A DNA stretch of 64,000 nucleotides from Nitrospiraceae bacterium (GTDB lineage: Bacteria; Nitrospirota; Thermodesulfovibrionia; Thermodesulfovibrionales; UBA1546). Below the pieces are notes generated by a model. It was not told the DNA's origin. It did not search any database and worked only from the letters and a program-made list of their open reading frames with translations. Made by a program: the position numbers and the translations under genes. Each line of letters opens with the position of its first letter. Positions within the stretch are counted from its first letter, which is position 1. The stretch is taken from assembly GCA_021373015.1 (NCBI GenBank), contig JAJFTJ010000005.1:289072-353071 (forward strand). The letters run 5' to 3'. Positions 25,883 through 29,517 of the stretch are shown here, in pieces.

Positions 25883-27478
25883 TTATGGCGTGTACCAATC
25901 CATTTTATTCTTCGGCACGCGCCAGTGTATAAAGTCATACCATATCCCCAATGGAGCTTTCTCAACGCCTTTAAATCGTTTATGAAGTACCGGTAGAGCA
26001 TCAGGCACATAAAGAAAGGTGTAAGGCTGATCTTCAGCAAGTATCTCATGAATTCTGTGATAAATTTTTTTTCTTTTCTCTATGTCAAACACATGTCTTC
26101 CTTTTATCAAAAGTCTGTCAACCTCCTCATTCTTATATGAGATAAAATTAAATTCTCCCTCTTTTATTTTTGACGAATGCCATATGTCGTACAGATCAGG
26201 ATCTCTGGATAATGACCATCCCATAATAACGGCCTCAAATTTCTTTTTATCTATGAACTCATGCAGCATAGCCTGCCATTCCAGAACATTAATATTCATT
26301 TCAACACCGATTTGGATAAGATTTTCCTTCATTATCTGAGCAGTTTTTATTCTTGCATCATTGCCTTGATTTACTAAGAGTGTGAATGAAAAAATTTTTC
26401 CGTCTTTCTCAAGTAGTCCGCTTTTTCCTTTTTTCCATCCTGCTTCGGCAAATAATTCAAGCGATTTGCCGGGATTATATTCCAGGTCTTTTACATCTTG
26501 ATTGTATGCCCATGATTCAGGAGGGAAAGGTCCTGTGCAAGGACTTCCATAACCAAGAAGAACTCCGTCTATAATATCCTTCTTGTTAATTGCATATGTA
26601 ATAGCCTGCCTGATCCTCTTGTCTGCAAACTTGGGATCAAGCAGATTATATCCAAGATATGTATAACCAAAAGACGGGTATCTGAATCCTTGAAAATATT
26701 TTTTAAAAAAATCTGTTCGTGCGTGAAGTTTAAATTGGGGAGGAGTCAAGTTCATAACATCTATTCCGCCGAACTTTAGTTCGAGAAACATCGTTGAATT
26801 ATCAGGTATAATCCTTGTTACGTATTTATCTATGCCTGCTCTTCCCTCAAAATACCTGTCAAAAGCTTCTAGAACAATCTTTTGACCTGTAACCCATTCC
26901 TTAAGTTTGTATGGTCCAGTTCCTATTGGATTTCTATTGTAATATTGGGAACTTATGTCTTTTCCATCAAGTATATGTTTAGGTATAATTCCCATGCCCC
27001 ATGACTCTAATGCAGACGCATAAGGCTCTTTATAAGTGACTCTAACAGTATATCTGTCAAGAGCTTTGACTTTGTCAACAGGCCCGTAATTGCTGACATA
27101 TGGTGTTGGAACTTTTGGATTTGTAACAGTGTTGTAAGTAAAGACTACATCGTCTGATGTTAATTCAATTCCGTCATGCCAGAGTACACCTTTTCTCAAA
27201 TAAAAAGTTATCTGAAGACCACTGGGAGATATATCCCATGAATGTGCCAAGTCACCAGTTATATTTATATTCTTGTCGTATTTTGTTAATCCGTTAAATA
27301 TTCTGTTGCTTATGTCACCAGAAGCACTGTCAGATGCAAGCAAAGGCAGTAATCTCTTTGCATCAGCAAGCGATCCTATTGTTATAGCATCGGGATTTTT
27401 GACCTCTGGTTCGTTAGCGCAAGAATAAATCGAAACTACTAATATCAGACCTGCGATTAACCTGCAAGTTATACTCAT
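25883..27478 (-). CDS. Peptide/nickel-type ABC transporter substrate-binding lipoprotein (SBP family 5)
   Basis: 531 residues with a lipoprotein signal (LIAGLILVVSIYSC, lipid-modified Cys about residue 20) and the family-5 binding fold (DAKRLLPLLASD; LAHSWDISPSGLQITFYLRK; RQAITYAINKKDIID). It probably captures di- or oligopeptides in the periplasm. No permease or ATPase genes are nearby, so it must use a transporter encoded elsewhere. Its place between amt and glnD suggests nitrogen scavenging. Confidence 0.85.
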   Translation of the reverse strand: MSITCRLIAGLILVVSIYSCANEPEVKNPDAITIGSLADAKRLLPLLASDSASGDISNRIFNGLTKYDKNINITGDLAHSWDISPSGLQITFYLRKGVLWHDGIELTSDDVVFTYNTVTNPKVPTPYVSNYGPVDKVKALDRYTVRVTYKEPYASALESWGMGIIPKHILDGKDISSQYYNRNPIGTGPYKLKEWVTGQKIVLEAFDRYFEGRAGIDKYVTRIIPDNSTMFLELKFGGIDVMNLTPPQFKLHARTDFFKKYFQGFRYPSFGYTYLGYNLLDPKFADKRIRQAITYAINKKDIIDGVLLGYGSPCTGPFPPESWAYNQDVKDLEYNPGKSLELFAEAGWKKGKSGLLEKDGKIFSFTLLVNQGNDARIKTAQIMKENLIQIGVEMNINVLEWQAMLHEFIDKKKFEAVIMGWSLSRDPDLYDIWHSSKIKEGEFNFISYKNEEVDRLLIKGRHVFDIEKRKKIYHRIHEILAEDQPYTFLYVPDALPVLHKRFKGVEKAPLGIWYDFIHWRVPKNKMDWYTP

Positions 27479-27508
27479 AACATATATTTTAGCACAGACC
27501 AGAAAGCC

Positions 27509-28831
27509 TTATGAGGTATAGCCGCTTTCTTCATGCTGACTTAAGTCAAGACCCATAACCTCGTCTTCCTCAGAAATTCTCAAACCTATTGTCAGGTCTA
27601 AAAACTTAAGAAGTCCCAGAGTTATAGCAAACGAATATACAGCAACCACTGCTATAGCTAGAAACTGAATCCAAAGCTGATTTGTATTACCGAAAAACAA
27701 TCCGTCTGCTCCAGTTGAATTTATAAGTTTCTGCGCAAACAAGCCTGCGCCGATTGTCCCGATAATGCCTCCAATTCCATGAACTCCAAAAGCATCCAGA
27801 GAATCGTCATAACCAAGCTTTCCTTTTTTACTCAATGCAAAATAACACCCTGCTCCTGCTAACAAACCTATTGCAAGCGCTGGCATTGGACCAACAAAAC
27901 CTGAAGCTGGTGTTATAGTTGCAAGTCCTGCAATAGAACCGGTTGCTGCACCTAGCATTGTTGGTTTTCCCCTATGAAGCCACTCTACAATTACCCATGC
28001 AAGAGTTGCTGACACAGCAGCAATATGTGTAGTAACAAAAGCAATTGTGCTTAATCCTCCTGATGCAAGAGCGCTGCCTCCGTTAAAACCAAACCAGCCA
28101 AACCATAACAAACCAGTTCCGAGCACTGTCATCGGGAGATTATGAGGCGCCATTGTCTCGCGCATATATCCTTTTCTCTTGCCAATAACTATAGCTGCTG
28201 CAAGCGCTGAGATACCTGATGTTATATGAACAACAACTCCTCCTGCAAAATCCAGCACACCAAGATTTTTTAGCCATCCGCCATTGCCCCATACCCAGTG
28301 CGCAACAGGGTCATAGACAATAGTTGACCAGAAAAGAGTGAAAACGAGGAAAGCAGAAAACTTCATTCGTTCTGCAAAAGCTCCGCTTATTAGAGCCGGG
28401 GTTATTACTGCAAACATAGCCTGATATATCATAAAAGCCATATGAGGCACCGTAGGAGCATAGTCTGGGTTCGGGCTGATTCCCACATTATTCAGGCTGA
28501 ACCATTCAAGATTACCGATAATTCCTTTCACATCAGGACCAAAAGAAAGACTGTAACCGATAAAAATCCACTGAATTGTAACAACAGCTATGGCAATGAA
28601 ACTATGCATTATTGTGCCAAGTACATTTTTTCGTCTCACCATACCGCCATAAAAAAGCGCAAGGCCTGGTGTCATTAACATAACAAGCGCTGTTGATGTA
28701 AGCACCCATGCTGTATCGCCTGTATTTATATTTGAGATTGAGGCTGCTGCATTCTGTGCTGACTGCTCAGCAAATGCATTCCCTATTGAAAAAAAACAAG
28801 CTATCACTAGAACCGCAAGTATAGTTTTCAT
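27509..28831 (-). CDS. amt: Ammonium transporter Amt
   Basis: 440 residues: signal peptide (TILAVLVIACFFSIGNAFA) and eleven membrane helices of the Amt/Rh family, with AFAERMKF, VYDPVAHWVWG (conserved Asp and pore-associated His) and FGVHGIGGIIG (second pore His). The C-terminal tail EVMGLDLSQHEE is the PII (GlnK) contact segment. The ATG at 28831 is chosen over an upstream TTG because GGAGGT lies 5 bases before it. A sigma-54 promoter precedes the gene, so it is likely induced by nitrogen limitation. Confidence 0.93.
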   Translation of the reverse strand: MKTILAVLVIACFFSIGNAFAEQSAQNAAASISNINTGDTAWVLTSTALVMLMTPGLALFYGGMVRRKNVLGTIMHSFIAIAVVTIQWIFIGYSLSFGPDVKGIIGNLEWFSLNNVGISPNPDYAPTVPHMAFMIYQAMFAVITPALISGAFAERMKFSAFLVFTLFWSTIVYDPVAHWVWGNGGWLKNLGVLDFAGGVVVHITSGISALAAAIVIGKRKGYMRETMAPHNLPMTVLGTGLLWFGWFGFNGGSALASGGLSTIAFVTTHIAAVSATLAWVIVEWLHRGKPTMLGAATGSIAGLATITPASGFVGPMPALAIGLLAGAGCYFALSKKGKLGYDDSLDAFGVHGIGGIIGTIGAGLFAQKLINSTGADGLFFGNTNQLWIQFLAIAVVAVYSFAITLGLLKFLDLTIGLRISEEDEVMGLDLSQHEESGYTS

Positions 28832-28870
28832 TATTGACCTCCACAATATTCTTTTTTAATTATCATTAAT

Positions 28871-29011: not shown

Positions 29012-29161
29012 TCAGAGCTCTTTGTCTGATGTCTTGTCTGAGGTTCCCGACCTCTTTGGAGATTTAGGTATTCAGGTCTGTATTCCTAGTTTAGGAAAAA
29101 CAACAAACTGCAAAACCAGCCAGAGAACTATGATTTCTAATATCACCAGCCAATCGCTCAT
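29012..29161 (-). CDS. Candidate small membrane selenoprotein (in-frame TGA at codon 30), 49 aa
   Basis: The ATG overlaps the secG stop (TAATG), so translation is coupled. The first 29 codons give one membrane helix (WLVILEIIVLWLVLQFVVF) followed by PKLGIQT. An in-frame TGA (29072-29074) comes next, then 19 more codons (IPKSPKRSG...) to a second TGA. Starting 17 bases after the first TGA, the mRNA can form GAGGU-CGGGA-ACCUC, placing GGU about where bacterial SECIS loops lie. If TGA is a plain stop the product is a 29-residue peptide. No selABC genes are in the window, so this is a hypothesis. Confidence 0.45.
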
Positions 29162-29517
29162 TATTTTTGAGCTGGGACTGCAGGTGTCTGTTGCTGCTGT
29201 GGTTGCACAGGCTGAAAACCTCCGCCCTGGGCTGCCGGAGTCTGTACAGGCATATCAGCCTTTGCAGGTATATTTTTAATAACAGAACTGCCTTTTGATG
29301 AAATAATTGCAAGCATCAGGGACGTCAGCATAAAAACTACTGCAGCAATTGTCGTAATCTTGCTGAAAAAAGTTGCTGCGCCGCGGCTTCCAAAAAGTGT
29401 CTGGCTTGAACCGCCAAATGCAGCTCCGAGTTCTGCGCCTTTACCGCTCTGAAGCAGAACGATAAATATTAAAAACAATGATACAACTATATGTGCTATC
29501 AAAAGCAATGCTGTCAT
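29161..29517 (-). CDS. secG: Protein-export membrane protein SecG
   Basis: Auxiliary subunit of the SecYEG translocon. Two membrane helices (LLIAHIVVSLFLIFIVLLQ; TTIAAVVFMLTSLMLAIIS) flank the family signature SGKGAELGAAFGGSSQTLFGSRGA. The C-terminal ~35 residues are Pro/Gln-rich and dispensable-looking. It overlaps tpiA by ATGA, the common tpiA-secG pairing. Confidence 0.93.
   Translation of the reverse strand: MTALLLIAHIVVSLFLIFIVLLQSGKGAELGAAFGGSSQTLFGSRGAATFFSKITTIAAVVFMLTSLMLAIISSKGSSVIKNIPAKADMPVQTPAAQGGGFQPVQPQQQQTPAVPAQK

Follow-up and report, generated by a model that had tools for sequence, protein, structure and literature searches.

In the E. coli fdhF SECIS, a GGU lies in the loop, and among eukaryotic selenoproteins SELENOK and SELENOS are small single-pass membrane proteins with selenocysteine (Sec) in a charged tail near the C-terminus. 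About 119 prokaryotic selenoprotein families or subfamilies have been catalogued, and for nearly all selenoenzymes Cys homologues exist and are the more abundant form, according to a 2026 review (PMC13188914). The bacterial SECIS (bSECIS) model has a loop of 3-9 nt, a stem of at least 4 bp, a distance of 16-37 nt from the UGA, and G in the first two loop positions, as G then G or U (PMC13188914).

Here we describe a short open reading frame (ORF) that very probably encodes a selenoprotein, located on the minus strand of a 64,000-nucleotide stretch of DNA from a Nitrospiraceae bacterium; the whole of this stretch is referred to as the window. The features are as follows.

29161-29517, minus strand: secG, from the ORF list; its end overlaps the start of the predicted selenoprotein by one base (TAATG), the final A of its TAA stop being the A of the ATG at 29161.
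29012-29161, minus strand: predicted selenoprotein ORF, 49 codons plus stop (UGA at 29014-29012), from the sequence, its translation and the homologues in 137 genomes, whose UGA occupies the same column.
29096-29152, minus strand: predicted single transmembrane helix, approximately residues 4-22, from hydropathy and charge counts in 79 members.
29072-29074, minus strand: in-frame UGA, codon 30, predicted to be read as selenocysteine, in the motif P-[KR]-x-G-[VI]-x-T-U; invariant in all homologues.
29040-29054, minus strand: putative bSECIS hairpin with a 5-bp stem (GAGGU/ACCUC) and loop CGGGA (29049-29045), the loop 22 nt past the UGA; from covariation in 47 relatives, a control comparison and the published model.

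The ORF translates as MSDWLVILEIIVLWLVLQFVVFPKLGIQT, TGA (29074-29072), IPKSPKRSGTSDKTSDKEL and a second TGA (29014-29012). A sequence-only reading had described a frame opening at the secG stop, with a membrane helix followed by PKLGIQT just before a TGA and 19 more codons after it; sequence and translation agree. We infer translational coupling from secG to this ORF.

Results

Conservation of the UGA and of the codons past it

In a translated search, most of 60 related genomes contain a homologue with TGA at the same place. Profile searches of 230 genomes from the same bacterial class and 296 from the phylum identified 137 and 78 carriers, respectively, and every real homologue contains a single in-frame UGA at the identical column (137 of 137 carriers for the class and all 78 for the phylum). 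Three stopless matches in the class search (18-20 bits) are short fragments from genomes that also carry the true gene. A scan of 84,980 species with one query sequence returned only one close relative, which does not imply absence elsewhere. The plasmid and phage collections gave no match to the family. The family consensus is M-S-D-W-L-...-VW-VLQ-VVFP[KR]LG[VI]PTU followed by a short tail such as GVNPKGSGTPKKKC, with P at -7 from Sec in 79 of 80 members, G at -4 in 78 of 80, and a size of roughly 43-61 residues.

At this locus an ORF finder returns exactly a membrane peptide of 29 residues that terminates at the UGA, and such a peptide, with the conserved hairpin behind it acting as a regulatory or stability element, is an alternative to the selenoprotein reading. 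Several observations argue against it. Neither UAA nor UAG replaces the internal stop in any of 137 genomes, whereas at the ends of these ORFs the three stop codons are evenly mixed (UAG 27, UGA 26, UAA 26); thus, the invariance of the internal UGA does not reflect a stop-codon preference, and UGA is not reassigned. In addition, the codons past the UGA are constrained. Among close pairs (those with at least 75% identity over the N-terminal half), pN/pS past the UGA is 0.46 in frame versus 1.02 and 1.33 off frame, and beyond the hairpin on its 3′ side the differences at codon positions 1, 2 and 3 are 0.31, 0.25 and 0.50. This third-position excess is a protein pattern, and by this measure the 3′ half of the ORF codes for protein; conservation of that half, the lack of which the earlier reading had named as refuting, is therefore present at the amino-acid level. 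Finally, 71 of 79 tails contain a Cys, at either of two alternative places. Although the hairpin in the window is unexceptional when taken alone, as described below, the likelihood of a terminated peptide is very slight, and we favour a selenoprotein whose translation continues past codon 30.

The downstream hairpin

The hairpin GAGGU-CGGGA-ACCUC begins 17 nt past the TGA with a GGU at +20 to +22, confirming what had been read from the sequence, and its 5 bp, CGGGA loop and 22-nt distance fall within the loop, stem and spacing rules of the published model. In isolation it is no better than chance, with 469 of 2000 shuffles at least as stable, and at -6.0 kcal/mol the segment from the window misses the published threshold of -7.5 kcal/mol, which many relatives pass and which is a search threshold rather than a biological requirement. 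Because the hairpin in isolation is unremarkable, the case rests on comparison with relatives.

Across the 47 members that share a register, six base pairs starting 13-14 nt past the UGA are paired in 86% of cells versus 65% in shuffled alignments, doubly changed cells number 63 versus 16 expected, and the covariation score is 0.658 versus 0.243, with 0 of 500 shuffles as high. Sliding the pairing partner by 1-3 columns abolishes the signal. The hairpin starts approximately 14-17 nt past the UGA in most members; its loop, CG(G/U)G, is conserved among relatives, most often starting CGUG or CGGG, and its stem varies in sequence. Model-conforming hairpins with E <= -4 are found past the Sec UGA in 50 of 80 cases versus past terminal stops in 9 of 79 (p = 1.2e-11); with E <= -2 the counts are 65 of 80 and 13 of 79. 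Comparable spacing is seen for the hairpins that follow the UGA of fdhA in the genome of the window and the UGA of those DsbC-like genes in relatives that contain one. The likeness to the fdhF SECIS drawn in the sequence-only reading is not quite right, because the GGU here sits in the 5′ arm of the stem rather than in the loop. A search of the region with Rfam returned nothing real.

Selenocysteine machinery and decoding of the UGA

The window's genome contains SelA (611 bits), SelB (383 bits) and tRNA-Sec (69 bits), the machinery whose presence in the host had been proposed as a check, together with an fdhA with an internal UGA. A second formate-dehydrogenase-like gene of this genome (G000:C7:98898-101756) has an internal TGA in its match. 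Across the phylum sample, SelB is above the cut-off in 75 of 78 carriers versus 52 of 218 non-carriers, an association that is confounded with phylogeny and that shows a modest contrast within the order alone. Two carriers below the SelB cut-off have tRNA-Sec, one with SelA (G195) and one without (G045). In the third genome, a 92% complete draft (G257, locus L139), the UGA gene and its tail are intact, with none of SelA, SelB or tRNA-Sec over the cut-off; contigs missing from the draft or a recent loss of the genes may account for this.

The coding evidence indicates that the UGA is read through, which would also be expected if it were decoded as a residue other than Sec, such as Trp or Cys, via readthrough or a local code change. 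However, 26 of these ORFs themselves terminate with UGA, the hairpin conforms to the bSECIS model, and SelB is present in nearly all carriers; we consider decoding as a non-Sec residue extremely improbable. Reading the UGA as Sec is supported by its conservation in 137 carriers, the downstream constraint and a compensated hairpin at the expected distance, as well as by the Sec machinery in the genome and the near-universal presence of SelB among carriers. These five lines agree with the earlier suggestion that this TGA may be Sec. We predict that SelB and tRNA-Sec decode codon 30 as selenocysteine, directed by the downstream hairpin, and on comparative sequence evidence the ORF almost certainly encodes a selenoprotein.

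Several observations run the other way, among them the weakness of the window's hairpin on its own and the carriers G257 and G045, which lack SelA and SelB above the cut-off. Homologues with Cys at this position had been put forward as strong support, and none was found at the Sec column among the 230 class or 296 phylum genomes; in family-free genomes, wherever secG and the region behind it could be read, neither a Cys homologue nor anything similar follows that gene directly. Because nearly all selenoenzymes have Cys homologues (PMC13188914), this absence counts against the selenoprotein reading. For the genomes searched, the family appears to be Sec-only.

Protein architecture

The most hydrophobic 19-residue stretch stops 7 residues short of Sec in 77 of 79 members and is the single hydrophobic segment. 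Lys and Arg residues average 0.08 ahead of the helix, against 2.43 within the 15 residues that follow, and they are more numerous after the helix than before it in 78 of 79 members. Because these residues are concentrated after the helix, the positive-inside rule places the charged tail, with Sec at its start, probably in the cytoplasm.

A Cys follows Sec in 71 of 79 members, at U+8 in 31 and further on in 41, mostly near the C-terminus, with one member having both; no Cys precedes Sec in 2286 residues of the 79 members. One Cys at either of two places, and never before Sec, is the pattern of a resolving partner, which suggests a Sec-Cys redox pair. Sec and the tail Cys could form a reversible selenenylsulfide, and the protein would then be a membrane-anchored thiol/selenol redox element acting, for example, in peroxide reduction or in disulfide exchange with a partner. 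Judging from these sequence patterns, we consider the chances of a redox role to be evenly balanced. The Sec-Cys pair in this form does not apply to the window's member, since its tail, like those of seven other members, is without Cys.

These eight members also fit an alternative in which the protein is a selenoprotein whose Sec has a structural role or is a ligand for metal or metalloid ions, without Cys cycling; a link to metals is on record for several prokaryotic selenoproteins (PMC13188914). The placement of a single Cys at one of two positions in nearly all the remaining members speaks against this alternative, as does the gene's immediate surroundings, where no metal or arsenic genes were recognised among near neighbours. 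We regard a metal-binding or structural Sec as rather unlikely.

Gene neighbours

At 80 loci, the upstream neighbour is rplQ in 64, secG in 9, a DsbC-like gene in 5 and located elsewhere in 2. Most of the rplQ-adjacent genes overlap rplQ or nearly touch it. The stop-start overlap with secG in the window is matched by similar spacing in most of the 9 related genomes, and on this basis the protein could be an accessory of the SecYEG translocon. However, the gene follows rplQ in 64 of 80 members and a DsbC-like gene in another 5, making a SecYEG accessory highly unlikely. Coupling to secG, as first read from the sequence, thus stands as the local arrangement of the window's own lineage, but not as a general feature, and a partnership with secG as a general rule is ruled out by the neighbour counts. 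Downstream on the minus strand (window positions 25883-28846) are an ammonium-transporter-like gene and a peptide-binding-protein-like gene; relatives of the latter lie directly behind the selenoprotein gene or secG in some related genomes.

In the 5 genomes with a DsbC-like gene directly upstream, the active-site motif of the encoded protein is UPxC in 4 (UPYC, UPHC, UPFC) and CPFC in 1. This mostly UGA-containing protein is a possible partner in one lineage. On sequence grounds we consider a Dsb partnership doubtful, and it is disfavoured because the periplasm, where a DsbC-like protein would reside, is out of reach of a cytoplasmic tail. The DsbC-like protein is probably secreted, contains an N-terminal CxxCH-like motif and has an active-site UGA (UPxC) in several relatives; it scores far below the NCBIfam DsbC cut-off. 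Its loci are L187 and L188 (genomes G045 and G238), L189, L190, L192 and L194, and the copies in the window's genome (L191 and L198) have no internal stop.

Discussion

Taken together, the results suggest a tentative model, one that we consider somewhat less likely to hold than to fail, in which Sec-obligate membrane micro-selenoproteins are a hallmark of one bacterial class. The juxtamembrane Sec and the tail Cys would form a membrane-anchored selenol/thiol switch, the synthesis of which is tied to rplQ by stop-start overlap in most carriers and which works with a Sec-containing DsbC-like protein in one lineage. If this model is true, the lack of any surviving Cys version would be accounted for, since the chemistry would require selenium.

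Searches with NCBIfam 20.0 (28 members) and Pfam-A (45 members), including their selenoprotein models, gave no meaningful match when judged by the curated cut-offs, and a PDB search returned nothing real. None of the 119 families in the 2026 catalogue can be recognised as this small membrane selenoprotein (PMC13188914), and no report of the family was found in the limited collection of papers searched. By these comparisons, this is a new selenoprotein family with a known decoding mechanism, unusual in its size, its membrane anchoring and its absent Cys forms. Many selenoenzymes belong to a known fold and nearly all have Cys homologues; the new family has neither. Having fewer than 60 residues and an internal stop, it readily escapes annotation, which points to small membrane proteins of the Sec-only kind as a blind spot. 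Lacking any Cys form, the family also offers a clean case for what selenium does that sulfur cannot.

Comparison with known systems places the family apart from each of them. DsbC/DsbG-like thiol:disulfide proteins, directly upstream in one lineage and mostly with an active-site UPxC, are neighbours and not relatives, because a 44-aa protein is too small for a thioredoxin fold. The KCU-star family (DUF466, NF033934) and other C-terminal Cys/Sec families (PMC13188914, Table 1) resemble it in being short, and some of the tails here finish with K-K-C beside a UGA. Membership of KCU-star was rejected, as there is no NCBIfam profile match and the codon past KKC is UAA or UAG in several members, which marks it as a true stop. 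Bacterial selenoproteins that use SelB and an in-frame bSECIS, such as FdhF/FdhA, share the in-frame UGA, the close hairpin and the Sec machinery of the host; in contrast to these, the new family consists of predicted single-pass membrane proteins of approximately 43-61 aa with no Cys form found and no library homology. The resemblance to SELENOK and SELENOS would be architectural, with no homology claimed: all are small, and the bacterial proteins are likewise predicted to be single-pass, with Sec in a charged and, here, probably cytoplasmic tail. In the bacterial family, however, Sec lies 7 residues from the membrane rather than near the C-terminus, and its decoding would be bacterial.
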